A stretch of DNA of 25,137 bases. Source: a virus. Positions 9,917-25,137 of the stretch are shown in pieces. Numbering within the stretch: the first letter of the stretch is position 1; every line of letters begins with the position of its first letter. The stretch lies in the IMG/VR virus record IMGVR_UViG_3300010354_000588, positions 1-25,137 of that record. The stretch is one strand, 5' to 3'. A model generated the notes under the pieces. That model saw only the letters and a list, made by a program, of their open reading frames with translations. It was not told where the DNA came from and ran no database searches. A program made the position numbers and the translations under genes.

Positions 9917-9935
9917 AAGTTATCCTTTTTAAAAA

Positions 9936-10703
9936 TTACCAAGAAGGGCGTACCTTAGCTAATTCGCCTTTTCTTTTTTGAGATTTCTCCATCATTTTTT
10001 CTCTTTTACCTTTTCTGTCTCCTTTTAGATGCATAATATATCCATCTAATACTGAGTTAAAATGATGTTTGTTTACATGAGCACTTAAATTTATCGATTT
10101 AAATTTTTCTTCTGTTTCAAATTCTTTTCTTACAACATCAAAGATAAAACTATCATGCCATTCTTTTAATTTATATAATTCGTCAGTATCATAATACCAT
10201 TTAAATCTATTAAAGAAGTCTTTAGAAAATTTGTGATTCAAATCAAAAATCATAAACCCGCATTCACTAAATCCCTTATTATCTCTTCCGAGATATCCTA
10301 CAAAAAAATCTTCTGGCAAAAAATTTCTAAAATATTCTGGACTTACTGAATCATATAATTCTGTATCACTATCTAGCCAAATTAGATAGCGGGAATTTGT
10401 ATTAAAAGCAGCATGATATAAGGCATACACTTTATGACTAAATCTAATAGATTGATATTGAAACTTAACATTGCCTTCGTTTCTAAATTTATTTCTTTCT
10501 TTAAACTGTGTAAGTTCCGGGATACTATTTTCCAAATTTAGAATCTTAAAGTTTTTTTGTTCCGGAATATCTACATTATCTTTATAAATTAATACTTCTA
10601 TTAATGGATTAAGAAATCTTGTACATGACTCCAAAAAGAATTTACCATAGTTGTGATAACCGTCGTCGCTGAATGTGGTAACAATTGATATATTTTTACT
10701 CAT
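9936..10703 (-). CDS. GT-A-type glycosyltransferase (paralogue of 14764-15573)
   Basis: A 255-aa protein of the same family as the plus-strand gene at 14764-15573. Shared blocks are VTTF near the start, SIRFSHKVYA, YLIWLDSDTEL with the DxD metal motif (Asp111, Asp113), GYLGRDNKGFSECGFMIFDL, LKEWHDSFIFDVVRK and a terminal YIMHLKGDRKGKR. DxD and the E-C-G and W-H-D-S motifs fit a GT-A nucleotide-sugar glycosyltransferase; the WHDSF block is characteristic of this phage-associated group. It follows the conserved 168-aa gene with an ATGA overlap and ends 20 bases before the cupin. The sugar and acceptor are unknown. Confidence 0.75.
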   Translation of the reverse strand: MSKNISIVTTFSDDGYHNYGKFFLESCTRFLNPLIEVLIYKDNVDIPEQKNFKILNLENSIPELTQFKERNKFRNEGNVKFQYQSIRFSHKVYALYHAAFNTNSRYLIWLDSDTELYDSVSPEYFRNFLPEDFFVGYLGRDNKGFSECGFMIFDLNHKFSKDFFNRFKWYYDTDELYKLKEWHDSFIFDVVRKEFETEEKFKSINLSAHVNKHHFNSVLDGYIMHLKGDRKGKREKMMEKSQKRKGELAKVRPSW

Positions 10704-11206
10704 AAAATTTTTGATAGATTTATAATTTCACTCTGTCTACTTATTTCTTTAACAAAATAAGAGCATAACGGCTTTTCTTTACCAGACAATGGTACAGTCA
10801 ATAATTGACCGTTTTTCATCTTAGGAAAATACCATTTTACATCGTTATAAAAATTAATTATCTCTATAGGTTTGAATTCAATTCTAAAACTGCTCAAAGG
10901 ATTAAAACAAAATGCTTCAAATCCTCTATCATTTAAACTGGTTAAAGGTAAAATTTCTATTTCACTACTACTACTGCTATCCCCTACTGCTATGCTCCAA
11001 TCAATGGGCATAGTTACTTCTTCGTCTCCTATTTTCAAAACCATAGCAGGAGCATTGAAGCTTTCTAGAAATATTAATGGTATAAAGAAAAAATCTGGAT
11101 TAGTAATATCGCTATTATCTAACACGCTAAATCTCATATTTTCGTCTACGTCATCGGGTAAGTTATTTAAATCAAATGATTTGTTTTCTAATGTTAAAAT
11201 GTTCAT
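10700..11206 (-). CDS. Conserved-looking 168-aa protein downstream of uvsW, unknown
   Basis: A 168-aa protein that starts one base after the uvsW stop. The sequence has an N-terminal LTLENKSFDLNNLPDDV, a beta-rich middle (MVLKIGDEEVTMPIDWSIAVGD) and SCSYFVKEISRQSE-like end near residue 150. The SSSSSE linker may be flexible. No catalytic motif or known fold is evident. Position directly after uvsW and translational coupling (ATGA) into the glycosyltransferase suggest it belongs to the conserved uvsW transcript rather than to the sugar genes. I have an impression of similar proteins in other T4-like marine phages but cannot name a function. Confidence 0.6.
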   Translation of the reverse strand: MNILTLENKSFDLNNLPDDVDENMRFSVLDNSDITNPDFFFIPLIFLESFNAPAMVLKIGDEEVTMPIDWSIAVGDSSSSSEIEILPLTSLNDRGFEAFCFNPLSSFRIEFKPIEIINFYNDVKWYFPKMKNGQLLTVPLSGKEKPLCSYFVKEISRQSEIINLSKIL

Positions 11207-11207
11207 A

Positions 11208-12674
11208 TTAATTCCAATCTATTTTCTCAAGCGTGAACGGGTACTTAGCTTCCTTATAAAACTTCTTCCTTTCGGTAAGGTGCCGTTTCGCATATTTACA
11301 GGTGCTGGTGATATCCCAAATTTGTACGAAGTCTTTGTCTTCTGCTTTTCGAATGCCTCGCCCAATGCTCTGTATAACGCGGACAAAGCTTTTTCCGGGC
11401 TCCAGAAGAACCAGATTAAAAATCCTAGGAATATTAATACCCACAGCGGCCACGCCATAAGTCGCCACAGTAATCTTTTTATCACTAACTGCATGTTCTT
11501 TATATTCTTCCTTTCTGTCTTTAGTTTTTACTTCTCCAGAAATAAAAACTGATTCGTTTATATTTTCAACTAAAAAGTTGCCGGTATCTATTCTGTTTAC
11601 TAAAACTAATGTGTTACCAGCTTCTGAAATTTCTTTAATTAAGGAAGCTATATAAGACATTCTTTCCTTATCAGTTACCAAATATTTTAATTCTGTAGCA
11701 TATGATTTAAATTCAGGTAAATCAATTAATTGTAATACGTTTACGTGTAGATTACTTAACACACCTAGTTCCTGAAGTTCATGAGCAGTGATTCCTCCTA
11801 CTACAGGTCCGATACTGGCAAAAATTATTTCAGACTCGTAATCTGCTTTAGGAACGGTACCTGTTAATCCCCATCTAATAGCTGAGTTACAAAAGTTTTG
11901 TGTTAACAAATTTTTTAACACTGCGGCTTTGGCCATATGAACTTCGTCGACTATTACACATTGAACTCCATCTAAAAATTCAGCTAGAGTAATAATCTCG
12001 TGTTCAGAATTTTTAGATTTTTTGTCTAAAATGTTTAAACTTTGCCATGTACATATAGTATGAGTTTTGTTTAGTTCTTTTCTATCTCCATAATATACTC
12101 CTACGTCTAATCCTACAAGATTAAAATCTTCTTCTGTTTGTTCTACTAAACTTTTATTAGGAACTATCACCACGGTCCTGCCATATGGTTCGCACAATTG
12201 AGCTAATGTTGCTGTCATAATAGTTTTACCGGCGCCGGTCGCTACTTCTTGTAGACTTTGCGGATTCTCAATAAATCTATTAACTACTTCAACTTGATCA
12301 TCACGTAACAATATAGGATCGCCTTCGGATCTATGTCCTGCTCCCCATACTTTACCTTGATCAGCCCAATATGTGTTTGTTACTTTAGCAAACTCTAGTT
12401 TTAGCGGCTGTCTTAGATCTTGTATTTCCTCTATCTCATAATTTAATTCTTCCAATACAGACAAGATAGTTGGGATTTGATTTACATAACCATTTCCACC
12501 CATGCCAAATAAAGTCACTGAGCCATCCCATCGACCTAATTGATACGATGGTCTGTATCTAGCAGTCGGGTCGACAAATTTAAATTTGCTTACTAATTTT
12601 CTTCTTACTTCGACGGGTAAACCTTCTAATTTAATGTTTACTTCGTCCTTTATTATAAGTTTACATGATGGCAT
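11208..12674 (-). CDS. uvsW: UvsW, RNA-DNA and DNA helicase
   Basis: A 488-aa superfamily 2 helicase, matching T4 UvsW (503 aa). Motif I ATGAGKT (145-151), motif Ia IVPNKSL, motif II DEVH (243-246), motif III TGT (271-273) and motif VI QSIGRGIRK (435-443) are all present, with the N-terminal DNA-binding region ahead of them (YQLGRWDGSVTLF). UvsW unwinds R-loops and recombination junctions, switching T4 replication from origin- to recombination-dependent. Its ATG at 12674 lies inside the last 14 bases of the 391-aa gene, so the two are co-translated. The complete motif set indicates an active enzyme. Confidence 0.93.
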   Translation of the reverse strand: MPSCKLIIKDEVNIKLEGLPVEVRRKLVSKFKFVDPTARYRPSYQLGRWDGSVTLFGMGGNGYVNQIPTILSVLEELNYEIEEIQDLRQPLKLEFAKVTNTYWADQGKVWGAGHRSEGDPILLRDDQVEVVNRFIENPQSLQEVATGAGKTIMTATLAQLCEPYGRTVVIVPNKSLVEQTEEDFNLVGLDVGVYYGDRKELNKTHTICTWQSLNILDKKSKNSEHEIITLAEFLDGVQCVIVDEVHMAKAAVLKNLLTQNFCNSAIRWGLTGTVPKADYESEIIFASIGPVVGGITAHELQELGVLSNLHVNVLQLIDLPEFKSYATELKYLVTDKERMSYIASLIKEISEAGNTLVLVNRIDTGNFLVENINESVFISGEVKTKDRKEEYKEHAVSDKKITVATYGVAAVGINIPRIFNLVLLEPGKSFVRVIQSIGRGIRKAEDKDFVQIWDITSTCKYAKRHLTERKKFYKEAKYPFTLEKIDWN

Positions 12675-13836
12675 AATCGAAGCCTGTTATTGGTTTTATA
12701 TCTGAATAACAAATTTTTAAATCTACATTATCACAGTAGCTATAAATTTTACTATTTTTAAAACTAGGTGTAAAACAAATTAATGATTTAGGTTTCCATT
12801 TATCTTTTACTAAAAATTTGGGTAAGGACTTATTAGATAAACCAACTAGTTTTGTTGTGTTGTCTAAGTAACAATTAAATTTTAAACTAGCAATTTTTTG
12901 ATTGAAATCTTTGTTGGTATTGTTATCTAGTCTAAAATATATACCTATATTTTCTTCTATGTTAGATGACGAAAACACATTGTGTATGGTATCTAACAGT
13001 TCGATACATTGTTTACTTTTATGTTGATCAAAAATAACTAATATTGGAAATCTTTGAAGAGTCTTTAGGGATAAAATAATATCTTGAAAAGAATAATTTA
13101 AAGAATTAACATATACATCGGAATGTGTACGTAAAGCTAAATTATTTTCTAATGAATTTTTTTCTAAAGATTCATGGAATGTGTACTGAAATCTATGTTT
13201 TCTGTCATGTATTAGAGTTATATCATTTATATTGTTTTCTCCAACATCTTCAGAAAATTTTCTAATAAAATTTAGATTGTACATGTCTTTGAAATCAAAA
13301 GTTTTAGTCGAACTTTCTTTTATCGATACAATCTCCTTGTAATAATTTACTATTTTTTCATCAAAATTAAACTGAAAATCCTGTAAATTTTTTACTAATG
13401 TAAGCACATTTTTTTCAGTAAGATCTACTACATACTGATTGTTTTTTATAGAGTGAATGTCACCATCTAATGTTTTAGACAAATTAAAAAGTTTATCTTT
13501 GATTTTTTTATTAAAGGTAAATTCCACTACAATTTTACTAGAATCTGTGTCAGAAATGAAAACTTTCTTAACTTGATCTAATTGTCTAAAAGGTTTAGAC
13601 CAAACAGGAGTTGAAATGAAATCTAATGAAGTATGCGATGCTTTTTCAATTTCTACTTTATATTGATATAAAATTTTTAGAAGTAGATTAGCTTGATTTT
13701 CGGTCAAAAATAAGTCATTTCTAATTTGATATCCTATACTTTCCAAGACTTTTTTATCTTTAGCTTGCCATTCAACTACCTCGCTATAGAAGTTGTTGAA
13801 TATCAAATCTTGTAATAAGTTATCTACAGTTTTCAT
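12661..13836 (-). CDS. 391-aa protein upstream of uvsW, unknown
   Basis: A 391-aa, lysine- and asparagine-rich, mostly alpha/beta protein. The N-terminus (DLIFNNFYSEV, then LTENQANLLLKIL near 43-56) is helical; the second half has alternating strands such as FPILVIFDQHKSKQ and KPKSLICFTPSF. No Walker A or other enzymatic motif is found. It overlaps uvsW by 14 bases and has the same promoter, so it may act with UvsW in recombination-dependent replication (inference). It is the first gene after a perfect sigma70 consensus promoter, and no Shine-Dalgarno precedes its ATG at 13836, implying leaderless translation. An alternative start could be the in-frame TTG at codon 12. Family not recognised. 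Confidence 0.6.
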   Translation of the reverse strand: MKTVDNLLQDLIFNNFYSEVVEWQAKDKKVLESIGYQIRNDLFLTENQANLLLKILYQYKVEIEKASHTSLDFISTPVWSKPFRQLDQVKKVFISDTDSSKIVVEFTFNKKIKDKLFNLSKTLDGDIHSIKNNQYVVDLTEKNVLTLVKNLQDFQFNFDEKIVNYYKEIVSIKESSTKTFDFKDMYNLNFIRKFSEDVGENNINDITLIHDRKHRFQYTFHESLEKNSLENNLALRTHSDVYVNSLNYSFQDIILSLKTLQRFPILVIFDQHKSKQCIELLDTIHNVFSSSNIEENIGIYFRLDNNTNKDFNQKIASLKFNCYLDNTTKLVGLSNKSLPKFLVKDKWKPKSLICFTPSFKNSKIYSYCDNVDLKICYSDIKPITGFDYAIM

Positions 13837-13842
13837 AATAAA

Positions 13843-13871
13843 ATTATATATTAAATAACAGTAGTTGTCAA
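13843..13871 (-). promoter_or_regulatory. Perfect sigma70 consensus promoter (predicted leaderless) for the uvsW operon
   Basis: Minus strand TTGACA (13871-13866), a 17-base spacer and TATAAT (13848-13843): 12 of 12 consensus bases at ideal spacing. Six bases (TTTATT) then lead straight to the ATG at 13836, so the predicted +1 is the start codon A. The -35 includes the TGA stop of the upstream KpsC/S-like gene. It should be read by host polymerase with the housekeeping sigma. Confidence 0.75.
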
Positions 13872-14725
13872 ATGTTTGAGTTAAAAATTCGTAAAATTGG
13901 GGTTCCTTGAGTTATTTCCTCTAAGGTCCATTCACAGTGACAAAGATCTTCTAACCAATACTCACGTCTTGGTCTAATAGGATTATCAATTCTAGAAAAA
14001 TCATGATTACCGACAGAAAATGCCAGACTAGCAGAATTTACAAAAGCAGGAACACCATTGATAATACTTAAAATTCCGGTATTAGAACAGGGATTGACCA
14101 CAGCCCACGCATTTTTTAAATCTTCATCGAAATCAAAGTCGTCATAGGTTCCTTGAATCTGTTTAGGTATTCTTACTTTAACATTGGCATAAGAAAAATT
14201 CGCAGCCCAATGCCAGTCTCTAGGGTGGGGTCGAAAAATTATGGGTTTGTTAGTATGTTTTTTAACACTATCTATGGTATCTTTAAGCCATTCTATAGGA
14301 GGAGGCATATCAGACCATTGTTCGCTCTTAGTATGCTGACCGCAGATAACAATGTTGTCACCACTCATGGTCCAGGGTTTTAACTTTATTCCTAATTTTT
14401 CAGGTCTATTGGGTTGGTAAGGATAATTTTTACCAAAATTTCCGTAATTATTGATGTGGTGTAATCCTATTCTCCATGTAGTACCTCTTTTCAAACAACC
14501 TACTTCTAAAACTAATATTCTTTTTCTCAGTTTGCGAGCATCATCCCATATTTTTTTATTTTGTTCCATACGTCCGTGCCATAGCACACTCCATATTACC
14601 AAAACATCGGCAGTAATATCGTGCTCGACCACTTCATGACCGAGTTTTTTAGCACCTTGTTCAAACGCGGTAAACACCGGTTTAGAATTTTGAGCACCAA
14701 AGCGAGGAAAAATTGAGAATTTCAT
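13868..14725 (-). CDS. KpsC/KpsS-like capsule polysaccharide glycosyltransferase-type protein (R-P-H-P subfamily)
   Basis: A 285-aa protein. ADVLVIWSVLW lies near residue 45; LGIKLKPWTMSGDNIVICGQ around 120 has the L-K-P-W motif shared with the protein at 16204-17130; IIFRPHPRDWHW is the classic R-P-H-P of KpsC/KpsS-type proteins (GT-B-like, CMP-Kdo users in bacteria); AVVNPCSNTGILSIINGVPAFV gives the nucleotide-sugar-binding strand-loop; and the end has WLEDLCHCEWTLEEI, the family closing motif. Bacterial KpsC/S are larger and often two-domain, so this is a single-domain version. Its TGA lies in the -35 box for the next gene. Start ATG at 14725 lacks a clear ribosome site. The donor may be Kdo or another sugar. 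Confidence 0.65.
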   Translation of the reverse strand: MKFSIFPRFGAQNSKPVFTAFEQGAKKLGHEVVEHDITADVLVIWSVLWHGRMEQNKKIWDDARKLRKRILVLEVGCLKRGTTWRIGLHHINNYGNFGKNYPYQPNRPEKLGIKLKPWTMSGDNIVICGQHTKSEQWSDMPPPIEWLKDTIDSVKKHTNKPIIFRPHPRDWHWAANFSYANVKVRIPKQIQGTYDDFDFDEDLKNAWAVVNPCSNTGILSIINGVPAFVNSASLAFSVGNHDFSRIDNPIRPRREYWLEDLCHCEWTLEEITQGTPILRIFNSNI

Positions 14726-14763
14726 ACGAGTGATAAGTAATATATGTATTTAATGAGGATAGT

Positions 14764-15573
14764 ATGCCAAAATATGCGGTAGTTACAACTTTTCATGCCA
14801 AAGGGTATGAGCAATATGCCCAAAAGTTCATAAAAACCTTTATTCAAACGTGGCCGCAGACTGTAAGTTTATATGCTTACACCGAAGAATGTAAAATTTC
14901 CGAATCTGCCTCGAATCTTATTGTAAGAGATTTACATTCATCTAGTCAACCTTTAGTAAATTTTAAAAACACATGGAAAAATGTACCTAAAGCTAACGGA
15001 GATGTCAGTCAAGACCCTATAAGAAGTAAAAGACGCGATGCCGGGAAAGGATTTAAATGGGATGCCATAAGATTTGCTCACAAAGTGTATTCAATTTTTC
15101 ATTGTGCTGAAAATTGTGACGCAAAAATATTAATTTGGATGGATGCTGACATGATATGTCATAATTCACTTACTGAAAATACCTTAGATTCCTTAATTCC
15201 TGAAAATGTAGACTTATGTTACTTAGGGAGGGGAGGTAAGTTTAGTGAATGCGGTCTTTATTCAATGAATTTATCCAGTATACGTATCAAACAGTTCTTA
15301 AAACAATTTCAAGAGTATTATGATGACGCAGAAAATGGTATTTTTCAGTTAGAGGAGTGGCATGATAGTTTTGTTTTCGATGCTGTAAGAAAATTACATT
15401 CTTTAATAGAAGTAAACTGGTCTGACGGATTAATTACAGGCGAAGGTCATCCGCTAATTAACAGTGCATGGGGTGCGTATCTTGATCATCTTAAGGGAAA
15501 ACGCAAAGAATACGGTAAAAGTCTAAAAACAGACTTAGTTGTAAACAGAAATGAAGGATATTGGCAATTATGA
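14764..15573 (+). CDS. GT-A-type glycosyltransferase (paralogue of 9936-10703)
   Basis: A 269-aa protein with the DxD motif in ILIWMDADM (Asp127, Asp129), preceded by WDAIRFAHKVYSIFH and followed by YLGRGGKFSECGLYSMNL, LEEWHDSFVFDAVRK and YLDHLKGKRKEYG; each aligns with the minus-strand paralogue about 4 kb away. It has a basic insertion before the shared core (SKRRDAGKG, near 88-96) that the paralogue lacks. GAGGAT lies just before the ATG at 14764. It diverges from the KpsC/S-like gene at 14725 and overlaps the downstream FkbM gene with ATGA, so the pair forms a small plus-strand module that would both add and methylate a sugar (inference). Confidence 0.75.
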   Translation: MPKYAVVTTFHAKGYEQYAQKFIKTFIQTWPQTVSLYAYTEECKISESASNLIVRDLHSSSQPLVNFKNTWKNVPKANGDVSQDPIRSKRRDAGKGFKWDAIRFAHKVYSIFHCAENCDAKILIWMDADMICHNSLTENTLDSLIPENVDLCYLGRGGKFSECGLYSMNLSSIRIKQFLKQFQEYYDDAENGIFQLEEWHDSFVFDAVRKLHSLIEVNWSDGLITGEGHPLINSAWGAYLDHLKGKRKEYGKSLKTDLVVNRNEGYWQL

Positions 15574-16226
15574 AAGAATCACACGGCTTTTGGTTTCCAG
15601 ATTATGATAATCATTTTCCAAGAATGCTCAAAAAAAGTTTAGAAAAGGATGGAGTATTAAGATATCAATGGAGAGCCAGGGAATCCGCAATAGCAAACTG
15701 TAAAGAACATAGGATTTGTATCGACATAGGAGCGAATGTAGGTCTCTGGAGTTGCGAACTAGTGGAAAATTTTCAACAGGTTATAGCTTTTGAACCAGTT
15801 AATGAGTTTATTCAGTGTTTTAAGAAAAATGTTAAAAAAACCAATTATACAATACATGAATGCGCTCTAGGAAGGCAAGAATCATATATTAATATGAATA
15901 TAGTCGAAGGAAATACAGGACACAGTCATATAGATCAGAATTCTTTAGGAAAAGGATCTATTCCTTTAAAGACATTGGATAGTTTTGACTTTCAAGACGT
16001 TGATTTAATAAAAATTGACGTAGAGGGGTTTGAAGAAGAAATATTAGCAGGTGCTATGAAAACAATTATTAAAAATAAACCTGTTATTGTTGTAGAACAA
16101 CAAACTCATGAATATAAAGATGCTAGAACAGATTTGCCATCAGTAAAGATTCTACAATCTTTAGGATATAAGGTAGTTGATCAGTTTAAGAAGGATTGGG
16201 TTCTTAAGTTCCAAGGTACGGAATAA
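15570..16226 (+). CDS. FkbM-family methyltransferase
   Basis: About 218 aa, FkbM-type SAM methyltransferase: ICIDIGANVGLW is the canonical SAM-binding motif I, VIAFEPVNEF the acidic beta2 end, TLDSFDFQDVDLIKIDVEGFEEEI the FkbM D-x-E-G-x-E region, and VIVVEQQ near the C-terminus. I start it at the ATG at 15570, within the ATGA overlap with the glycosyltransferase stop, rather than the TTG at 15561: AAGGA lies 11 bases before the ATG but only two before the TTG. Its last 23 bases overlap the end of the convergent gene at 16204. It probably O-methylates the sugar added by its partner. Unlike the copy at 8919-9572, it keeps the motif I Asp. Confidence 0.85.
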   Translation: MKESHGFWFPDYDNHFPRMLKKSLEKDGVLRYQWRARESAIANCKEHRICIDIGANVGLWSCELVENFQQVIAFEPVNEFIQCFKKNVKKTNYTIHECALGRQESYINMNIVEGNTGHSHIDQNSLGKGSIPLKTLDSFDFQDVDLIKIDVEGFEEEILAGAMKTIIKNKPVIVVEQQTHEYKDARTDLPSVKILQSLGYKVVDQFKKDWVLKFQGTE

Positions 16227-17130
16227 ATTTTCTATATATATCTCCTGCTGCTCCTTCGTCATCGGTCCAGTGAGCAGCAGACAGATCATAAATCCACTGA
16301 TTTCTGTCAAAAAAGTCTGGTGTTTCTATTAAGGCAACATTTTTATTTGCCACAGTCCAAGCAACACAACTTTTATCGTCTATAAAAATAGGAATTCCTT
16401 CACATACAGCAGCAACAGCACTTGAACTATTAAAAAAAACAGCAGCATGGGCTTTATGTAAACTTTGTAATAATGGAATTTGTGTGCTATCTACAACTGA
16501 AATATTATTTGTGTCACTTACGAATTTACTGAAATCTTGAGGCTTTCCAGGATGCGGTCTTATAACAATATGCCTTGTAGTATGCTGTCTTAGTTCTATT
16601 AATTTGTTAGCTAACCACTGCATTGGGTCTAAATTTTTCATACTGAACCCGCCATCTCTTTGCATACAAACTAAAATATGATTTCCTTTAGATCTCCAAG
16701 GTTTAAGTTGAATATTTAAAGCAGAACTTATCTTAGACCATTTTTCAGAGTTTGAATCATGATTAGCATATTCTGCTTGGTCGTAAAAAGGACCGCCTAT
16801 ACTGTATCTTAAAAAACGATTTTCACTATCTATATATTTCCAACAGTTCGCATCAATACACATAGTGTGATTGCCTAATTTTTTTTGATTTTCGACAATT
16901 TGCTGTCTTAACAAAACATTAGGAGTAGTTTTATCCTGAGTTACCCAGCCTAGAATCACAGCTAATCTGCTAGGAGTATACCTATATTGTGTTTCTACGT
17001 GTACAGTATGTCCAAACTTTCTAACACCTTCCGCAAAACTATTTAAACAACTTAATTTTTTTGGATGTTTAGTAATATTAAGTACACTACTCAAATAAAC
17101 AACAACATCATAAACATTATTATGTTTCAC
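16204..17130 (-). CDS. KpsC/KpsS-like capsule polysaccharide glycosyltransferase-type protein (R-P-H-P subfamily)
   Basis: A 308-aa protein related to the one at 13868-14725: IQLKPWRSKGNHILVCMQ, HIVIRPHPGKPQD, AVFFNSSSAVAAVCEGIPIFI and a closing WIYDLSAAHWTDDEG align block by block. The serine-rich FFNSSSA loop is typical of KpsC/S-type GT-B-like proteins. The start is GTG at 17130: GGAG lies eight bases upstream and no in-frame ATG exists in the N-terminal stretch. It overlaps the stop of the 541-aa glycosyltransferase by 11 bases, so it is translated with it. Its stop overlaps the plus-strand FkbM gene tail to tail. The probable role is adding an acidic or Kdo-like sugar. Confidence 0.65.
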   Translation of the reverse strand: MKHNNVYDVVVYLSSVLNITKHPKKLSCLNSFAEGVRKFGHTVHVETQYRYTPSRLAVILGWVTQDKTTPNVLLRQQIVENQKKLGNHTMCIDANCWKYIDSENRFLRYSIGGPFYDQAEYANHDSNSEKWSKISSALNIQLKPWRSKGNHILVCMQRDGGFSMKNLDPMQWLANKLIELRQHTTRHIVIRPHPGKPQDFSKFVSDTNNISVVDSTQIPLLQSLHKAHAAVFFNSSSAVAAVCEGIPIFIDDKSCVAWTVANKNVALIETPDFFDRNQWIYDLSAAHWTDDEGAAGDIYRKFIPYLGT

Positions 17131-18745
17131 TAACTATTCTCCATGCTTCCCCAGTTCTCATTTCGGCTTCTGTGAACTGTGAATAGGCAAGATGACACGC
17201 CCATCTATGAACTTCGTCTAAAGTAGGAATGTACGGTTTTTCTATCAGACTTAAATCAGATAAACAAAGACTTTGAGCAGCATTAGGTCCCAATGTGAAG
17301 GCCGGTTTTCCTAATAATAATGATTCCGTAGCCGCTATACTGTTAAATGTCACTACACAATGAACATCTTGTGTAAGAGCCATTGCCATTGTATCTGTGG
17401 TAACTCTTTCTGTTCTTCCTTTTTTCAATCTTATTACAATCTCTCTATCAGTATATTTTTTAATAGTTTCCAAGGTTTCGGCTACCCATTTATCTAAATC
17501 GAGCTCATAAAAAACCATAACTTTGGCACTAGGAGGACATAATAATATTTTAGAGCCTCCTCTGAATTTAGTAAGACTTACTCCTGTTGCTTGGAATCTA
17601 TCTGCTGGTCTATCCACAATAGGACCGATGTTCTGCATGGCGTTTTTTGTTACTCTGTGATAGAGTTTCTTACGACCGTTACCAAAATATCCAGTATCTA
17701 TATAATAAAAATCTCGACCTTGTTCTCTACAAGCTCGCATTTGTTTTCTTTTTGTAATGCCTCTTAATAAGACTGGTTTAGTATCTTTTTCTACTAAATC
17801 CCATGTACTAATTTGTCCACCGGCACCAAGAATAAAATTTTGTAAAATTGGATCATACATATGGCCTTTCTCCGAATATCTAAATTCTGAATCTGTTGAA
17901 GTTAAATTGTTTGTTTCTATATTTTTAATTTTGTCTATCACGATTTCTTGTGTAGTATCATAATAAGTGCCCGACGGATCGACTCTGTATTTTAAAATAG
18001 TATCAAAAACTTCTTTTATTTCTTTAGGAACTAATTCATAAGGACTTGGTGGCGGTGGAGGAGATTTAATAGTTTCTAAATATTTGTGTTTTTCTTCTAC
18101 CCATACTGCTCCGTATTCACAATTTACATGATTAGGAAACCAAGGACCGCCCTCTGTATAGTGAAGTGCTTTAGGTTTGCCATGGTTGGGTTCTTTATAC
18201 CATCCTACTAGCCAGTTCCATTCTTGACTAAGACATCCTATTTCTTCATCTTTTAGCCATTGAAATCTATGAAGATATGCTCCTGTAGCACTGTTTACTA
18301 GTTCTTTAGTAAGAACTTTATTACTAGGATGTTCGCAATTAAATAAAATCAAACTACTCCAATTTTTTCTTGGATATCTGTGTTGTGTTTTACCGTCCAT
18401 TTTAACAGTGTTTGTAGGATTATATTCATGTTGGACTACCATTACAGCGTAATTTTGATTATGAGTCATATAGAATAGTTTTTGAACATCTTCTAAGAAA
18501 ACAAAATCACAATCTACAAATGCTGCCCATCCTGTATAATTGTTTAAATGTGGAACTAAAAATCTAGTGAATGTAAATTCCGTTGAACTTAATGGGTCTT
18601 CTTCTCTGGTATAAATTTCTGCTTTTCGTAATTCATTTTGTTTTAAAGGAATTACTTCAACATTTTCATTTCTAGATACAAGTGAATGTCTACATACTTG
18701 ATATGCTATATCTTCTCTACTGTCCCAACCGACATATACTTTCAT
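17120..18745 (-). CDS. Two-domain glycosyltransferase: GT8-like GT-A domain fused to KpsC/S-like domain
   Basis: A 541-aa fusion. Residues 1-225 form a GT-A domain beginning MKVYVGWDSRED, with FVDCDFVF (DxD at Asp78-Asp80), LILFNC, and the late HYTEGGPWF (His195), the pattern of GT8-type and related retaining glycosyltransferases. A proline run near 229-234 leads to a second part: IDTGYFGNGRKK (349-360), ILLCPPSAK, EIVIRLKKG (435-443), TFNSIAATESLLLGKPAF and WACHLAYSQFTEAE. That half is a KpsC/S-like domain closest to the plus-strand gene at 7468-8262; like it, it has R-x-K-K in place of R-P-H-P. The gene is joined by ATGA to the nucleotidyltransferase-cupin gene, placing sugar activation and transfer together. 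Confidence 0.75.
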   Translation of the reverse strand: MKVYVGWDSREDIAYQVCRHSLVSRNENVEVIPLKQNELRKAEIYTREEDPLSSTEFTFTRFLVPHLNNYTGWAAFVDCDFVFLEDVQKLFYMTHNQNYAVMVVQHEYNPTNTVKMDGKTQHRYPRKNWSSLILFNCEHPSNKVLTKELVNSATGAYLHRFQWLKDEEIGCLSQEWNWLVGWYKEPNHGKPKALHYTEGGPWFPNHVNCEYGAVWVEEKHKYLETIKSPPPPPSPYELVPKEIKEVFDTILKYRVDPSGTYYDTTQEIVIDKIKNIETNNLTSTDSEFRYSEKGHMYDPILQNFILGAGGQISTWDLVEKDTKPVLLRGITKRKQMRACREQGRDFYYIDTGYFGNGRKKLYHRVTKNAMQNIGPIVDRPADRFQATGVSLTKFRGGSKILLCPPSAKVMVFYELDLDKWVAETLETIKKYTDREIVIRLKKGRTERVTTDTMAMALTQDVHCVVTFNSIAATESLLLGKPAFTLGPNAAQSLCLSDLSLIEKPYIPTLDEVHRWACHLAYSQFTEAEMRTGEAWRIVSET

Positions 18746-19506
18746 TTTCTTTCTATATCCTCTTCTTTACAGTCACTACCGTACTGAATTTCTACTATCT
18801 TTAAAGGTGTATCAGAAGGATTACATAATTGATGCCATTCAGTTTTTTTAATATGTAAACTTTGATGTTTATGAAATATACCTAAAAATTCGTGATCTGA
18901 ACTTCTATTGATAGTATAAACTTCAGCAGTTCCTTCTACTATAAACCAATGCTCTGCTCGATGTTCATGTTTCTGCATGCTTAGACATTGGCCTGGATTT
19001 ACTGTTAGTTCTTTAACTTTGACTTCTTTACCATTTTCATGAAGTATACGGTAATATCCCCAGGGGCGTTCTGTTTTAGGACTTTTCCATTCCTCTAATA
19101 TCCAAGAACTTGAATTTTTTTTATCTTCGCCCCCGACACCAAAAACAAATTCTAGATTTGTATCCGTAAAATCCATTTCTGGGATATTTGTTTTTGTTCT
19201 GTCACCACCGTTGGCAAAAATAATTTGATCTGTAGGGTAACTTTGTCGTACCATCCAGATAGCATGTTTGGCTGTATCATCTGTATCATTGAAATCGATC
19301 ACAAAATCGACTCCTTTGATATTTCGAATGATATTAGTACGTTCTATGAGAGGCATAAAACTTCTAGATTTTTTTCTCACGAGCCAGTCATCGGAGTTGA
19401 CTCCTACAATAAGGAGATCTCCTAATTTCTTTGCCGCTTGAATATAAGAAATATGTCCGGAATGGACAGGGTCAAAACCACCAGTTATCAACACTATTTT
19501 TTTCAT
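18742..19506 (-). CDS. Nucleotidyltransferase fused to PMI-type cupin
   Basis: A 254-aa fusion. Residues 1-130 match the cytidylyltransferase/HldE C-terminal family: GGFDPVHSGH (H15-x2-H18), VGVNSDDWL, then a GGDRTK motif near 100-105. Residues 145-250 are a cupin like that at the end of type II mannose-6-phosphate isomerase/ManC proteins: RPWGYY, VKVKELTVNPGQ, KHEHRAEHW (His180, His182, Glu185, His186), IVEGTAEV and EWHQLCNP. The expected reaction is NTP plus a sugar phosphate or glycerol phosphate to a nucleotide-activated product, with the cupin either isomerising or binding the sugar. HldE and ManC do not have this domain pairing. It is coupled by four bases to the two-domain glycosyltransferase. 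It has no clear ribosome site. Confidence 0.85.
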   Translation of the reverse strand: MKKIVLITGGFDPVHSGHISYIQAAKKLGDLLIVGVNSDDWLVRKKSRSFMPLIERTNIIRNIKGVDFVIDFNDTDDTAKHAIWMVRQSYPTDQIIFANGGDRTKTNIPEMDFTDTNLEFVFGVGGEDKKNSSSWILEEWKSPKTERPWGYYRILHENGKEVKVKELTVNPGQCLSMQKHEHRAEHWFIVEGTAEVYTINRSSDHEFLGIFHKHQSLHIKKTEWHQLCNPSDTPLKIVEIQYGSDCKEEDIERK

Positions 19507-19537
19507 GCTGATATTTATCTGATAGTTTTATACCTGG

Positions 19538-20176
19538 CTAAAGTTTGGTAAAAAGATAAGAAATAGAATTCCACCCAGAGATTCTTTCACCAAAAGCATT
19601 TTCTATCTCTTTAATAGCTGTAGGAAATCGTGCGTGTTTAATATTAGTTTTAATAAAAAATCTTCCATTATTATTAAGATAGTTAAAGATATTATCTTTT
19701 AAAAATCTCCAATCCTGGGCTGTCCATGTATTTTCTAGTTTTTCATTATAATCAAATACTGATCTACAAATGGTTATTAAATCAAATTTGTCATCAAGAT
19801 AGAATGATTGTTGTTTTTCTATGGTTAGTTCTCTAATATCCAACTCATAAAAAGAATAAATGTTAGATAAAAAATTAATAGAATCTTTTGTTTCTGTTCC
19901 TACGACAGAATGTCCAAGATTTTTACTTAATACTAATAGATGTCCTACTCCTGTGCCTATATCAAGTATCTTTAAATTTTTGGTATCTCGTAATTTTAAA
20001 AAATTTATTATAGATAATTTTTCAGGCAAATATACTAACTCATCAAAATATTTGTAATAATTATTAGTATTGTCGTACGGAACATTAAGATTAGTTAAAT
20101 CTACACATTTTCTAGCCCAATCTAATTGATCCGAAGTGAAATTGTTAGTAAGCGATCTGTCTTTATAAGGTGGCAT
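19538..20176 (-). CDS. SAM-dependent class I methyltransferase
   Basis: About 212 aa. The SAM-binding motif ILDIGTGVGHLL lies about one third of the way in; VVGTET is the acidic beta2 position; DKFDLITICRSVF is motif IV; NNNGRFFIKT is a late strand typical of class I enzymes. I take the ATG at 20176, as the TTG at 20191 has no usable ribosome site while GGAA sits some six to ten bases ahead of the ATG. It overlaps the uvsY-like gene by 14 bases. Sequence detail does not tell whether it modifies a sugar or something else; its downstream neighbours are glycan genes, so small-molecule or glycan methylation is the better guess. Confidence 0.75.
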   Translation of the reverse strand: MPPYKDRSLTNNFTSDQLDWARKCVDLTNLNVPYDNTNNYYKYFDELVYLPEKLSIINFLKLRDTKNLKILDIGTGVGHLLVLSKNLGHSVVGTETKDSINFLSNIYSFYELDIRELTIEKQQSFYLDDKFDLITICRSVFDYNEKLENTWTAQDWRFLKDNIFNYLNNNGRFFIKTNIKHARFPTAIKEIENAFGERISGWNSISYLFTKL

Positions 20177-20615
20177 CTTCCATTCCAGCAACTCTAAGTT
20201 TAATTATATTACTTAATTGCCACTGTTTAATATCCAGTGATTTAGTTATTCCTAACCATTTATTACGTAATAAGGCAAATTCATTAATAATTTTTTCGAA
20301 ATCGACTACATCTGATTCGCCTTCTACATATTTTTCGCAGTCTCTACTACTAAGGGCACGTTGATAATTTTCAAGATATTTACGAAAATGTTGACTTTTT
20401 AAACGTCGAAGCTCTATGTTTAGATATTCTAATATAGCTTCAATTTCTTGAAGTTGACTATATCTTAATTCTACAATACCAGGCATGTTAGCAGCTGCCT
20501 TTTCTATATTTCCCGTTATGCGGCTATCATTTTTTGCTGCCTGTAATTCGGCTTCAAAGTATGTCACAGCATCAGGAATATAAGATATATCTTTACTTAC
20601 TTTAGAATACCACAT
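20163..20615 (-). CDS. uvsY: Probable UvsY-like recombination mediator
   Basis: A 150-aa helical, charged protein. The central LRYSQLQEIEAILEYLNIELRRLK (residues about 50-75) is a long amphipathic helix, followed by SRDCEKYVEGESDVVDFEKI and a C-terminal helical segment (KWLGITKSLDIKQWQLSNIIKLR) that resembles the end of T4 UvsY (137 aa). UvsY loads UvsX onto gp32-covered ssDNA and forms hexamers. Position supports it: it follows uvsX by one gene in the same transcript, close to gp32. Sequence likeness to T4 UvsY is weak by eye, so the name rests partly on context. Start ATG at 20615; gap of two bases to the acidic gene. Confidence 0.6.
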   Translation of the reverse strand: MWYSKVSKDISYIPDAVTYFEAELQAAKNDSRITGNIEKAAANMPGIVELRYSQLQEIEAILEYLNIELRRLKSQHFRKYLENYQRALSSRDCEKYVEGESDVVDFEKIINEFALLRNKWLGITKSLDIKQWQLSNIIKLRVAGMEDATL

Positions 20616-20617: not shown

Positions 20618-20863
20618 TTAATCTTCGTCATCGTAATCCCAATTGTCTTCGTCATACTGATCTTCATCTGGTTCTTCGTCCATATAGTATGAAATAGCTT
20701 CATCTAAAGATTCATCGTACCCACTTGCAGATTGTATTATTTTATCACTCACTCCATGATCAGCTAATAAGTCGATGTAACGCTCTGCTGCTAGATCAAT
20801 TGTCTTTTTATCTAAATATTCCTTAAATAGCATCCAGATATCGGCAATTTGATTTTCATTCAT
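20618..20863 (-). CDS. Small acidic protein between uvsX and uvsY, unknown
   Basis: An 81-aa protein. The first 55 residues are helical, and the last 20 are almost all Asp/Glu with Tyr and Trp interspersed (DEDNWDYDDED at the end). Such tails imitate nucleic acid and recall the acidic C-terminus of gp32, so it might bind UvsX, UvsY or gp32 and tune filament assembly (inference). It overlaps the uvsX stop by eight bases and ends two bases before the uvsY-like ATG, so expression is tied to both. No enzymatic motif. Confidence 0.65.
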   Translation of the reverse strand: MNENQIADIWMLFKEYLDKKTIDLAAERYIDLLADHGVSDKIIQSASGYDESLDEAISYYMDEEPDEDQYDEDNWDYDDED

Positions 20864-21905
20864 TTTCTAAAAGCTCCTCAGTTTCGATAGGTTTGTAATT
20901 GTTAAAGTCATTCATAACTTTATCTAAACAGCCTTCTTCATTACGTTCCCATTCTTTGCGATAATATTTAATAATTTCTCCATCATTTGTAGTGAATGAT
21001 AGTCTATTTCCGTCTTTTTTAAGAAGCCCTTTGCCCTCTGCTAAATCGACTAGACCACTATAAGGATTCATTCCTGTTTCATAAGGAATTTTTACCTGTA
21101 CACTTTCAAAAGGTTTAGCATATCTAGTTTTCATTACTTTACAAGCAGCACGAATTCCTCTAACTTCTGAAATCTTATTGCCGTCATCATCTTCTTTTAA
21201 TTTTAGTTTTTTCATAGCAACTACAATGCTACTAGCATAGATAAAACCTTGTCCTCCTGAAATCTTATCATCCGGATCAAACATATCTTGACTGGCATAG
21301 GTATGATTAGTAGCAATTAATCCAACATTAGCACTGCCAAACATGTTTACACAATTACGGACAAGTGCTGTAAGTGCTTTAGGTTTACGACCCATATCTC
21401 CTTTAAGATCACCTGCTTCAAACTGATTAACATCTGTTGGTGTTAGCAACATTCCAAGACTATCAATTACAAACAAAACTTTAGGACGATCTTCCATTGT
21501 TTTGTATTCTTTCATAAACTCATTTATAGTTTTAGCTACGTCATCGATCATAGCCATATTAAGTTTAAGAAGTTTGTCTTCTGCTGTGTCAACACCCAAT
21601 GCTTTAAGCCAATCTTCATCGAGCGCATTCTCGCTGTCAATTAAAATAACATAAATGCCTTGCTCTTGAGCATGTCTTACAAGATTTCCTGAACAAATAT
21701 AACTTTTACCTGCTCCGCTTTCCCCAGCAAATACAGTAACTTTGCCTAAAGGTACACCTCTATTAAAATCACCACTTATCAAGTAGTTAAGAGCGTAATT
21801 TCCTGTACTAATCCAATCTGTAGGATCATTAAACCCTACACCTAATCCGTCGATACTTTTTGTTAATGTTTTACGAAACTTTGTTAAGTCAAATGCTTTA
21901 GCCAT
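20856..21905 (-). CDS. uvsX: UvsX, RecA-like recombinase
   Basis: A 349-aa RecA/Rad51-family recombinase (T4 UvsX about 390 aa). Walker A GESGAGKS (61-68), Walker B VLFVIDSLGM (143-152) and the loop region DLKGDMGRKPKAL followed by GLIATNHTY are in order. It coats ssDNA and performs strand exchange for recombination-dependent replication and repair. AAAGGA lies upstream of the ATG at 21905, and a sigma70-like promoter with a perfect -35 precedes it. The following acidic protein and uvsY-like gene are in the same transcript. The base composition appears somewhat richer in GC than that of the flanking glycan genes, as expected for a core gene. Confidence 0.95.
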   Translation of the reverse strand: MAKAFDLTKFRKTLTKSIDGLGVGFNDPTDWISTGNYALNYLISGDFNRGVPLGKVTVFAGESGAGKSYICSGNLVRHAQEQGIYVILIDSENALDEDWLKALGVDTAEDKLLKLNMAMIDDVAKTINEFMKEYKTMEDRPKVLFVIDSLGMLLTPTDVNQFEAGDLKGDMGRKPKALTALVRNCVNMFGSANVGLIATNHTYASQDMFDPDDKISGGQGFIYASSIVVAMKKLKLKEDDDGNKISEVRGIRAACKVMKTRYAKPFESVQVKIPYETGMNPYSGLVDLAEGKGLLKKDGNRLSFTTNDGEIIKYYRKEWERNEEGCLDKVMNDFNNYKPIETEELLENE

Positions 21906-21923
21906 AATTTTTTCCTTTGTATA

Positions 21924-21952
21924 ATATTAAAATAATAATTGTTGCCTGTCAA
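21924..21952 (-). promoter_or_regulatory. Sigma70-like promoter for uvsX
   Basis: Minus strand: perfect TTGACA (21952-21947), a 17-base spacer, then TAATAT (21929-21924; 4 of 6). Unlike the two leaderless promoters, it leaves 18 bases before the ATG, with AAAGGA as ribosome site. It fits between the radical-SAM stop and uvsX. Confidence 0.5.
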
Positions 21953-21961
21953 AATATTTGA

Positions 21962-23383
21962 TTATCTGCCTTGAAATGTTTTTAATTTGTCTTTATACAA
22001 TTCAAATAATCTCTGTTCATGATCAAAAAAGTCGCCTACTAAATTCCTAATTTCTAAATATGATTTACCCACTATTGAATTTAAATCTACTCCTAATGTT
22101 TTAATGGCTCCTAAATGCCACATACCCATTCTTGATTGTGCATCTACATATCTATTCAACGTAGCCGATACGTTGTAAGCTTTAATCCAGGACCAGTCGC
22201 CTCTTTCCCAATGTAAATTGTATAAAGGGTTAGGCCAAGTCACACCTTCTTTTACAAAATTCTTTTCCCATACACCATTTTTTTCATGATGGTTTAATAA
22301 AAGAGGAATGAACCAAAAGAAATCAATGTTAGATGACTTTAACCAATCAGCTGTTTGATATAGATGGTCTTCGGTTTCGCCTGGCAATCCTGCTATAAAA
22401 TGACAATCTATGTGTGTATGAGTCCACTTTTCTCGGATTTCTAATAAAAAATCTTTTCCTCTTTTAGCACTCCAGGGTTTAGCTATCGCTTTAGCTGCTG
22501 CTGGATGAAAAGTTTCAATACCAAACAAAGCACCACGTTGACCGCAGTTATGTAATATATCCTGAGTGTGCGGATTTTTATCCAACAGATCAGCTCTATT
22601 GTAAGCTAAAAATTCTAATTTAAAAGGTAATTTATCATATATTTTTTCTAAGTTTATAATTCTATCTGTATTAGCATTAAATGTTTCATCTAGAAAATAA
22701 TATGCGGTAGTTCCAAATTTTTCATAAATTTCTACAAACTCATCTACCATTAACATTATATCTTTTTCATCTGTACCAGGTTTTTTTCCTAAATTTGGAT
22801 CCCTACAAAATGGACATTGAAATATACAACCCCTGCCCCATTCTATAGGTAAGCACTCGCCTGGTAAAATACAATCATGATCTTTATATGTAAATCGTTG
22901 ATGTTCTATAGAAAAGTTTTTTCTTAATAATTTTGTTGAAGTTTTTTGCTGACTTAACTCATCTAAGATTTTTAAAAGAGGATTTTCTCCAAAGTGATCG
23001 AATACATGAAAATCAAAAATTTTAGTGCCTTTAACATATTGTCCTGGACCACCAATGGCAGTTTTAAGTTTGGGGTATTTTAACTTTAATTCAGTAATAG
23101 CGATATCTATATTTTCAGGAACGTTGGAAGCAGCATGTTGCATAAGTAAATTTGTATCATAACTTGTCCACATAGTGCTACTAACACCTATCAATAATGT
23201 GCTATCATCTATGAACATTTCTGTATGTTCAATTAATTCTGAAGGACTAAACAAATGTGTGAATTCTATAACTTGACAAGTATAACCGTGTTCCTCTAAC
23301 CATCTAGCTAACGAATAACAAGCTATAGGTCTCCATATAAGTGGTCTGTGTCCTATTTGACTATAAAAAATGACATTGGCCAT
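21962..23383 (-). CDS. Radical-SAM enzyme with B12-binding-like N-terminus
   Basis: A 473-aa protein. Residues 1-150 look like the cobalamin-binding-type Rossmann half of B12-dependent radical-SAM proteins (RPIACYSLARWLEEHGY, LLIGVSSTMWTS, AIGGPGQY, FGENPLLKILDEL), but without an evident D-x-H-x2-G. The radical-SAM core follows: GRGCIFQCPFC (Cys186, Cys190, Cys193), the CX3CX2C iron-sulfur site, then YYFLDETFN, LFGIETF and HFIAGLPGETEDH, all expected. A tryptophan-rich C-terminal part (380-440) is specific to this family. It starts directly after the stop of the DUF3050 gene with no gap. The reaction is unknown: C-C, C-P or C-S bond formation or methylation are options. Rare in T4-like phage cores, it appears intact. 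Confidence 0.8.
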   Translation of the reverse strand: MANVIFYSQIGHRPLIWRPIACYSLARWLEEHGYTCQVIEFTHLFSPSELIEHTEMFIDDSTLLIGVSSTMWTSYDTNLLMQHAASNVPENIDIAITELKLKYPKLKTAIGGPGQYVKGTKIFDFHVFDHFGENPLLKILDELSQQKTSTKLLRKNFSIEHQRFTYKDHDCILPGECLPIEWGRGCIFQCPFCRDPNLGKKPGTDEKDIMLMVDEFVEIYEKFGTTAYYFLDETFNANTDRIINLEKIYDKLPFKLEFLAYNRADLLDKNPHTQDILHNCGQRGALFGIETFHPAAAKAIAKPWSAKRGKDFLLEIREKWTHTHIDCHFIAGLPGETEDHLYQTADWLKSSNIDFFWFIPLLLNHHEKNGVWEKNFVKEGVTWPNPLYNLHWERGDWSWIKAYNVSATLNRYVDAQSRMGMWHLGAIKTLGVDLNSIVGKSYLEIRNLVGDFFDHEQRLFELYKDKLKTFQGR

Positions 23384-24139
23384 TTAATTAAAATTTTCCT
23401 GTAAAATTAAATCCCAAAATTTTTCTCTAGCTTTAATTGCAGTAAGAGCTGCTTCGGTAGCTTCTTTCATTCTAGTTTCATCATTTTGACATAATTCGAC
23501 TAGCAGTTTTCTAGCAGCAGGCCCGTGTTGATCTGAATCTATTTCAACATGTCTAGCAAGATACCATTGAAATATTTCTGAAGGAATTTCTGCTCCTTGT
23601 AATTGTACTAGAACAGATTTGAATTGTTGGGGTAACAAGTCCTCTCTTCCTAATGCCAGTGCTGAACAAATAACCCAAGGTTTATCAGTATCAATAAAAG
23701 ATTTAGTTTGCTTCATAAAAAATTTAGCAGGTGCTGGAACTTTAGGATGAAGAATAGCATTTTGATAACCTATAGTATCAACTAAATCAGACCAACTTTC
23801 TATCCAACTAGTATCTATACCTATTTCTTTCATTGCTAGTATATAAGATTCAAAGTGACTAGAATAATCTTTACCGTTGTAGGTAATATCACTTTCTTCC
23901 CCTAAAATTATTTCATTGATCCATCTTCTGGCAGAAGCAGAATATTTAGGTGTCCACGGACTACCACTTGGAGCCAAGTGATGTTGTAGTTGTTTAGTTA
24001 AACACATGAAATCCCAAACAGCATAGACATGGTTGATCATGAAGATTTTTAAATCATCAATACAACCAATACTTTGTCTAGCTGTTAAGGGATGTTGGCG
24101 CAATTTCCATTGCGCCGTTTCTATTTGTTTCCAATCCAT
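23384..24139 (-). CDS. DUF3050-family protein (haem-oxygenase-like fold, possible diiron oxidase)
   Basis: A 251-aa protein with DUF3050 features: FMINHVYAVWDFMCLTKQLQ (33-52), INEIILGEESD (74-84), SSHFESYILAMKEIG (93-107) and LARHVEIDSDQHGP (195-207). In this fold (TENA/HDO type), similar His/Glu/Asp clusters bind a diiron cofactor; here the available ligands are His37, Glu76 or Glu82, His95, Glu97, Glu166, His197, Asp201 and His205. The spacing (H-x3-D-x3-H) differs slightly from the H-x3-D-x2-H of known oxidases. The reaction is unknown; the fold could oxidise an amino acid or small metabolite. TAA abuts the radical-SAM ATG, so the two are co-translated. No clear ribosome site; a stem-loop lies just upstream of the ATG. 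Confidence 0.75.
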   Translation of the reverse strand: MDWKQIETAQWKLRQHPLTARQSIGCIDDLKIFMINHVYAVWDFMCLTKQLQHHLAPSGSPWTPKYSASARRWINEIILGEESDITYNGKDYSSHFESYILAMKEIGIDTSWIESWSDLVDTIGYQNAILHPKVPAPAKFFMKQTKSFIDTDKPWVICSALALGREDLLPQQFKSVLVQLQGAEIPSEIFQWYLARHVEIDSDQHGPAARKLLVELCQNDETRMKEATEAALTAIKAREKFWDLILQENFN

Positions 24140-24144
24140 AATAT

Positions 24145-24168
24145 TAAGTAAAGATAAAACTTTACTTA
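24145..24168. terminator. Stem-loop between gp32 and the DUF3050 gene (attenuator or processing site)
   Basis: A nine-base-pair stem (TAAGTAAAG / CTTTACTTA) encloses the six-base loop ATAAAA. Flanking AATATT repeats may extend it after a bulge. It lies 8 bases downstream of the gp32 stop and 6 bases upstream of the DUF3050 ATG. No T-run follows and the stem is AT-rich, so it is a weak rho-independent terminator at best; it could instead trim or stabilise the gp32 mRNA 3' end or lower translation of the next gene. Confidence 0.4.
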
Positions 24169-24175
24169 TATAATA

Positions 24176-25137
24176 TTACTTTTGACGATTGCGAATCATA
24201 GCAAGGATATCTTCTGCCTTGCTTGAGCTTGTCGAAGAAGGTGTTGCTTCTTTCTTGGATGTAGATTCTGTATCGAAAGGAGGATCATCGTCTAGATCTG
24301 GACTTGTTTGAGGATTGCTTGGTGGGCCTGCCTTAGCTACAGGATCACCAGTCGCTGAGCTCATGCCTGCCGGTTTAAAATATTGACCCCAGCGATCCAT
24401 ATCAAATGGTTCACCGTCTACACTTGCTTCGAACATTTCTTTGATTACTTTGATTTCTACATCAGTAGGTTTTTTCGGTAAGTAATCTTTAAGTTCAAAT
24501 AAGCCATTGGCTTCAAGAGCTGCTGCTTCTTTATCGTCTAATGGACGACTACGACGACTCCATTTACTAGTGCTATAATCAGCATAACCGCCTTTGCTAG
24601 TTTTGATTAATTTAAAATCTACACCATTTACAGCGTCAGTAGGTAGATCATCCATCTCAGGATCAAGCAAAGCTGCTCTGATTAATTGAAAGATTTGAGG
24701 ACCAATAATAAATCTACGAATTGGATTTTCTGGTTTTTGTTCTTCTTTCAATCCATCTTCTACTACAAAGCCTTGGAAAATATAACTACGTTTTTTCCAA
24801 TATTTACGACCTTGATCCTCTAAGCTCGGATCTTTGAACCAGCCACGTACTTCACTAAGGATAGGACAAGTTTCGCCATACATTTCCATACATGGAACAT
24901 TGACTGTGACTTGTTTGCTTTCTGTTTGACCTTTGATTCCTGCGAAAGGAAGCTTGATCATAGAACGTTCTACCCAGAAGAAAGTATTATCTGCGTTACC
25001 ATCTGGTAGGAATCGTACTGTGGATTCGGAACCTTCTTTTAAGTTCCAGAACGGATAGATTGAATTATCTCCGCCTTTTGATTCGCCGCCACTGCGGGTT
25101 TCTTGCTCTTTAAGTTTTGCACGAATTTCAGCTAAAG
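24176..25137 (-). CDS. 32: gp32-type single-stranded DNA-binding protein (5' end cut by window edge)
   Basis: The frame stays open from the stop at 24176 to the right edge, about 319 aa, and an internal Met at 24961 is not the start: upstream codons give FWNLKEGSESTVRFLPDG, the gp32 OB-fold beginning that corresponds to the T4 AVIRFLPS region. Further on are IFQGFVVEDG, NPIRRFIIGPQIFQLI and a linker with acidic DLDDDPPFDTES before a short helix AEDILAMIRNR. gp32 coats ssDNA, recruits UvsX/UvsY and replication proteins via the acidic C-terminus, and controls its own translation in T4. Only two Cys (VPCMEMYGETC) remain in the zinc region, so the T4 zinc site (one His, three Cys) is not conserved. 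Confidence 0.85.
   Translation of the reverse strand, partial: LAEIRAKLKEQETRSGGESKGGDNSIYPFWNLKEGSESTVRFLPDGNADNTFFWVERSMIKLPFAGIKGQTESKQVTVNVPCMEMYGETCPILSEVRGWFKDPSLEDQGRKYWKKRSYIFQGFVVEDGLKEEQKPENPIRRFIIGPQIFQLIRAALLDPEMDDLPTDAVNGVDFKLIKTSKGGYADYSTSKWSRRSRPLDDKEAAALEANGLFELKDYLPKKPTDVEIKVIKEMFEASVDGEPFDMDRWGQYFKPAGMSSATGDPVAKAGPPSNPQTSPDLDDDPPFDTESTSKKEATPSSTSSSKAEDILAMIRNRQK

Follow-up and report, generated by a model that had tools for sequence, protein, structure and literature searches.

We analyzed positions 1 to 25,137 of the IMG/VR virus record IMGVR_UViG_3300010354_000588, a single strand of 25,137 nucleotides that is referred to below as the window. Two genes, encoding a DUF3050 protein and a radical-SAM enzyme (rSAM), lie between those of a gp32-like ssDNA-binding protein and the uvsX recombinase (Table 1), with uvsY beyond uvsX. 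Both reading frames, on the minus strand, lie exactly where an earlier sequence-only reading had placed them between gp32 and uvsX, and its claim that the rSAM gene starts on the base after the DUF3050 stop is correct: the ATG (from 23383) directly follows the TAA. Because of this zero spacer, the two genes are probably co-transcribed. The pair leaves 36 bp free upstream and 56 bp downstream. The promoter-like element directly before uvsX, whose TTGACA is also present before uvsX in related phages, suggests that this gene has its own promoter. In another part of the window (8264-20191), several glycan genes are present, which encode glycosyltransferases (GT25, GT2- and GT8-like), FkbM methyltransferases, and a fusion of a nucleotidyltransferase with a mannose-6-phosphate-isomerase-like cupin.

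Table 1. Positions of the genes, predicted sites and promoter-like element in the window
Feature	Position	Strand	Remarks
gp32-like ssDNA-binding protein	24176..25135	minus	PHROG 1192, 4e-59; 5' end off window; upstream border of the slot
DUF3050 protein	23384..24139	minus	251 aa; PF11251 240.5 bits; AF2 pLDDT 94.8; HamA 9vwb Z 30.4
Glu82, predicted iron ligand	23894..23896	minus	invariant in 52 sequences, as is the adjoining Glu81
His95, predicted iron ligand	23855..23857	minus	invariant in 52 sequences
Glu166, predicted iron ligand	23642..23644	minus	invariant in 52 sequences
His197-x3-Asp201-x3-His205, predicted iron-ligand helix	23525..23551	minus	invariant in 52 sequences; Tyr193 one turn upstream
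Radical-SAM enzyme, N-terminal cobalamin-type Rossmann domain	21962..23383	minus	473 aa; PF04055 40.6 bits; AF2 pLDDT 92.0
CX3CX2C 4Fe-4S motif, Cys186-Cys190-Cys193	22805..22828	minus	only Cys invariant in 27/27 phage rSAMs
Promoter-like TTGACA-17-TAATAT	21924..21952	minus	just before uvsX; consensus match only
uvsX recombinase	20856..21905	minus	PHROG 97, 1e-69; downstream border of the slot

The DUF3050 and radical-SAM proteins

The Pfam score of the DUF3050 protein is far above the family cut-off of 22.2 bits, which places the protein in this family, and a weaker match to Haem_oxygenas_2 was detected as well. Its AF2 model has the heme-oxygenase-like helical fold that the sequence-only reading had named. 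In the structure comparison proposed by that reading, CADD (Z 22.6) and UndA (20.0) were among the matches, together with HrmI (22.2), PqqC and FlcD (both 19.7), and the closest solved structure was that named HamA (35% identity), which was also the only confident match in a profile search of solved structures. The 52 DUF3050 sequences compared, from phages and bacteria, have eight invariant residues in common (E81, E82, H95, E166, Y193, H197, D201, and H205). All of these residues except E81 and Y193 are predicted diiron ligands (three histidines and three carboxylates), in agreement with the six ligands assigned to DUF3050 through homology modelling (PMC4520260). The protein is a predicted diiron oxidase with a complete predicted ligand set and, judging from sequence and model, would contain metal; the sequence-only reading had regarded the lack of a metal site as evidence against itself, and the predicted site is intact. 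We found no proven reaction in the literature for any DUF3050 protein, HamA included. In a review (PMC11705231), HamA is described as a heme-oxygenase-like diiron oxidase (HDO) and a putative N-N bond former acting on a valine-derived substrate, this putative role being assigned to HamA, HamE, or both. HamA is dispensable after dihydrosydnone N-oxide, HamA/PvfA are dispensable for hydroxylamine (PMC11659414), and mangotoxin is still produced, at a reduced level, by mgoB mutants (PMC3298696).

The second protein is a member of the radical-SAM superfamily (Radical_SAM cut-off, 29.5 bits), and its cluster-binding motif consists of the very cysteines that the sequence-only reading had listed (Cys186-193). 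The B12-binding model PF02310 scores 12.6 bits in the window rSAM, under the cut-off of 32.1, and 38.3 bits, above it, in the relative from L072. The AF2 model has a two-domain cobalamin-type fold, i.e., a Rossmann domain and a radical-SAM core. Its fold matches are OxsB (Z 21.4), AprD4 (21.3), TsrM (20.6), CysS (20.5), MgmA (20.4), and MTTases near 20; scores within 1 of each other count as tied. AprD4 has the cobalamin-type fold without use of cobalamin, so the fold match does not settle B12 use, and the earlier term "B12-type" holds for the modelled fold. A methylthiotransferase (MiaB/RimO) identity is excluded because the three N-terminal cysteines of the second cluster are missing, with no other family-wide cysteine. 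A SPASM/twitch peptide maturase was also rejected, as there are no conserved C-terminal auxiliary-cluster cysteines. The window rSAM is under every NCBIfam cut-off, including those of PhpK (60.4 bits vs 600), the ladderane rSAM (50.8 vs 360), and HpnJ (49.5 vs 577.6). A sequence search with the single protein found no relative among solved structures, and no PHROGs model matched it. PADLOC gave a weak 30-bit match to the candidate PDC-M51A over the radical-SAM core, and the DUF3050 protein was without a match. In the rSAM tree, a clade with a support of 100/100 unites the phage proteins with one bacterial array of six copies and separates them from the remaining bacterial B12-type rSAMs in the sample.

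The gp32-uvsX interval and the occurrence of the pair

The interval between gp32 and uvsX (window 21906-24175) was surveyed in 80 close uvsX relatives (including L228, L232, L237, L239, L252, L261, L263, L267, L269, and L274). It is empty, i.e., less than 400 bp separate gp32 from uvsX, in 43 of these relatives, and contains extra genes in 30. Among the contents of the filled intervals are a fatty-acid desaturase, several genes of unknown kind, and SPASM/twitch rSAMs with a short-chain dehydrogenase (often two such rSAM genes accompany the dehydrogenase). This interval is a cargo slot of the phage group, and therefore the position between gp32 and uvsX gives no clue to timing or to a DNA role. 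The sequence-only reading had taken this placement as a hint of early timing in infection; the hint is countered by relatives that have nothing or unrelated genes in the slot, and by other phage groups that have the pair at other places. The slot is also a place to seek more alternative cassettes.

The gene order gp32-DUF3050-(rSAM)-uvsX was found in about 25 IMG/VR contigs. A profile search detected further DUF3050 proteins, at about 40% identity, in other phages, where most of them adjoin an rSAM that belongs to this family and has the CX3CX2C motif, in varied gene settings. After dereplication, this rSAM adjoins DUF3050 in 22 of the 28 non-redundant phage loci, a count that leaves out one truncated locus; SPASM-type rSAMs are the neighbors in four others, three of which also have a Cys-rich peptide, and two are without an rSAM. 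The corresponding frequency in bacteria is 0/80 (Fisher p 8e-18), the bacterial loci being the best matches to the phage profile and not a random sample. It should be noted that all loci are metagenomic fragments, that pattern-based searches miss distant members, and that the E-values of collection scans are relative. Eight phage groups have the adjacent pair, with either gene coming first and with spacers mostly of -4 to +1 bp; since the L066 and L072 types, counted separately here, share a setting, there are about seven independent genome settings. DUF3050 is found after the rSAM, before it, or between two rSAMs (L092), and L041 has a DUF3050-rSAM-rSAM2 triple. Clustering of the neighboring proteins showed wide recurrence for two families alone, DUF3050 (11 groups) and this rSAM (nine groups); the next most widespread families, fatty-acid desaturase and PstS-like, are present in three groups each. 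This co-occurrence in eight groups supports a real unit, which is phage-specific as far as sampled; the sequence-only reading had held that the two genes should be found together elsewhere, and this they are. The distance matrices of the two proteins correlate (Mantel r 0.92, 14 lineages, permutation p 0.0002), although part of the parallel divergence is due to shared phage ancestry. Among 50,697 records of phage isolates, we found no relatives of either protein, one match having an E-value of 6.

A search for the rSAM in 15 DUF3050-bearing bacteria and 864 further bacterial genomes returned mostly partial, low-scoring matches, one array excepted. Two bacterial DUF3050 loci have a neighboring rSAM, L141 and L152. 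An identity was individually assigned for the rSAM at L141: it is the tRNA enzyme MtaB, is encoded on the opposite strand, and was rejected as a pair partner. The array (L197 7976-19866, G251 contig C127) belongs to one gammaproteobacterial genome and comprises six rSAMs of the otherwise phage-only family, several of them paired with a protein of about 200 aa from an unknown family; a PLP decarboxylase, AMP-ligase-like genes, and a methyltransferase adjoin it.

The two genes can part in at least one lineage, as the L001 type keeps DUF3050 without the rSAM at the slot; this state was found in six contigs of two lineages. Directly after its DUF3050 stop, L013 has ATGGCAAACTTAATTTTTTTTTGA (MANLIFF-stop), a sequence similar to a shortened rSAM start (MANVIFY). 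The apparent remnant suggests that the loss of the rSAM in L013 is probably secondary. The L001-type loci are fragments, and these phages may carry an rSAM elsewhere in the genome. Contigs with rSAM-rSAM2 were present in two samples that contain the DUF3050-only type (L001/L044 and L006/L046), although the contigs of a sample cannot be tied to one genome. One 364-kb contig has both DUF3050-rSAM at gp32-uvsX and rSAM-rSAM2 far away. The rSAM2 paralogue directly follows the rSAM in L042 (6001-8921), L044 (6001-8922), and L041 (6001-8945). Two contigs of the viral collection, L085 and L086, carry DUF3050 in a very different gene setting that lacks an rSAM, and may be bacterial DNA.

Related systems and sister clusters

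HamA, MgoB, and PvfA of the ham, mgo, and pvf diazeniumdiolate clusters have the Pfam family, the fold, and the six ligands in common with the phage DUF3050 protein. Their partners are an AurF-like N-oxygenase and an NRPS, whereas the sole partner of the phage protein is a radical-SAM enzyme; neither an AurF-like N-oxygenase nor an NRPS was found among the scanned window ORFs, and the neighbors of the pair are gp32 and uvsX. The HDOs CADD, HrmI, SznF, UndA, FlcD, and PolF have a similar helical bundle with three histidine and three carboxylate ligands, at about 10-16% identity to the phage DUF3050 protein. The ligand helix reads HxxxDxxxH in the phage protein and HxxxDxxH in SznF (H311, D315, H318). 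SznF has a cupin and PolF a DUF6421 helper; unlike the phage protein, neither has an rSAM. OxsB, TsrM, CysS, MgmA, and AprD4 match the full-length fold of the phage rSAM, at 14-16% identity. The biosynthesis of PQQ (PqqA peptide, the rSAM PqqE, and PqqC) also combines a radical-SAM enzyme with a heme-oxygenase-fold oxidase. PqqE is of the SPASM type and PqqC is metal-free; the window pair differs in having neither a peptide nor SPASM cysteines. Support of PQQ synthesis has been proposed for rSAM-bearing Baikal viruses (PMC7678222), a role that was rejected for the window, whose rSAM has no SPASM cysteines. Variable cassettes with rSAM genes, as here, are known from the pelagimyophages, which are aquatic T4-like phages (PMC7029224), and we found no HDO partner described for those genes.

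The sister phage DUF3050 proteins of L025, L075, L078, and L083 form a clade (98/90), and their genes end clusters of up to four rSAMs (L078 2571-8738; L083 2644-8750; L025 474-6747; L075 455-3581; also G013). L025, L078, and L083 have, upstream of the rSAMs, a short peptide whose C-terminus carries a CxCxCxC run. This gives a RiPP-like order of a 68-71 aa peptide with a terminal Cys-x-Cys run (CDCQCQCNCNRGTV), rSAM genes, and DUF3050; the peptide is missing from L075, which is a fragment. The leader of the peptide resembles a neighboring phage structural protein. The first rSAM of L078 is nearest to the ranthipeptide maturase PapB (125.8 bits vs a cut-off of 340). Iron-sulfur assembly genes (IscA/IscU/ErpA-like by eye) adjoin the rSAM-DUF3050 clusters of L078 (9202-10283) and L075 (4045-5100). 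In the pair-bearing phages searched, no homologue of the Cys-rich peptide was found, the only match, in G006, having a value of 0.04 and an internal stop.

Possible function of the pair

With a probability of about 0.5, we consider the two genes to be a phage-specific two-enzyme cassette that acts on one small, probably amino-acid-derived substrate, with the enzymes working in succession. The pairing is well supported, whereas catalysis and the shared substrate are what we infer; a two-step pathway, suggested by the sequence-only reading, is plausible. HDOs perform O2-driven oxidation of C-H or N-H bonds, and cobalamin-fold rSAMs methylate or rearrange. The rSAM would generate a 5'-deoxyadenosyl radical and would methylate or rearrange the same substrate as the DUF3050 oxidase, the two acting one after the other in either order. 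The substrate would be a small host metabolite, and its derivation from an amino acid is a tentative assignment, favored because the space next to the pair is too short for a precursor peptide and because the pathway of HamA is valine-derived. The location of the cassette between gp32 and uvsX follows from this interval being the cargo slot.

Modification of a peptide or protein, in which the pair would tailor a target encoded elsewhere (a ribosomal peptide, or a protein of the phage or its host), stays a candidate because of the Cys-rich peptides in the sister clusters, which have as many as four rSAMs. Precedents for such tailoring are the PQQ, ranthipeptide and MCR-modifying enzymes, and the PapB-like rSAM of L078 and the presence of MgmA, which methylates a protein glutamine, among the close fold matches are consistent with it. 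The pair-bearing phages searched contain no homologue of the Cys-rich peptide, though, no partner gene recurs near the pair, and the free space around the window pair is too small; the last, with the missing homologue, led us to reject an adjacent precursor peptide, and tailoring as a whole appears rather unlikely. Lipids stay a candidate because fatty-acid desaturases lie near several of the copies (L041, L042, L044, L078). The HDO would act on a fatty acyl chain, like UndA, and the rSAM would methylate or cyclize this chain. The fold match to UndA, the score with the ladderane B12-rSAM model, the desaturase-like genes common to four large pair-bearing phages, and acyl-CoA dehydrogenase as the top neighbor of bacterial DUF3050 (10/80) are in line with a lipid substrate. 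Conversely, the ladderane score is far under the family cut-off, the folds of HamA, CADD, and HrmI are nearer than that of UndA, and a related phage without the pair at the slot (L263) also has desaturase cargo, all of which makes this explanation improbable.

The location of the pair within a replication and recombination block, beside gp32 and uvsX, could point to modification of DNA or nucleotides, but the slot is generic cargo space and other phage groups have the pair beside other genes. A DNA-linked role was rejected as the main reading, and we regard it as very unlikely. The chance that the two genes are independent cargo, adjacent by coincidence, is slighter still: DUF3050 does stand alone in the L001-type phages, yet the two genes adjoin each other in eight groups, whichever comes first, and in most cases the stop of one touches or overlaps the start of the other; the co-occurrence counts strongly disfavor such a coincidence.

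Returning to the two-enzyme cassette, it is possible, at somewhat less than even odds, that these phages use a diiron oxidase, O2-dependent and dedicated to the task, in tandem with a cobalamin-fold rSAM to produce a small molecule of their own or a modification without precedent, and that the cassette has spread among aquatic phages via alternative-cassette slots. We found neither this combination of enzymes in described pathways nor an HDO with a radical-SAM enzyme in phages in the literature. The chemistry that phages are known to carry mostly concerns DNA bases, photosynthesis, and nucleotides. A pair of metalloenzymes, one O2-using and one of the radical-SAM type, that is conserved and specific to phages would indicate phage biosynthesis of an unexplored kind, and it gives the DUF3050 family a compact two-gene system for substrate discovery. 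The four large phage genomes that we compared share 43 families, mostly core ones, plus desaturases and carbamoyltransferase-like genes, and these shared families hint at no single substrate. Genes that look by eye like NodU-like carbamoyltransferases are present in all four of these pair-bearing genomes (e.g., G001 8406-9383 and 55633-57447).
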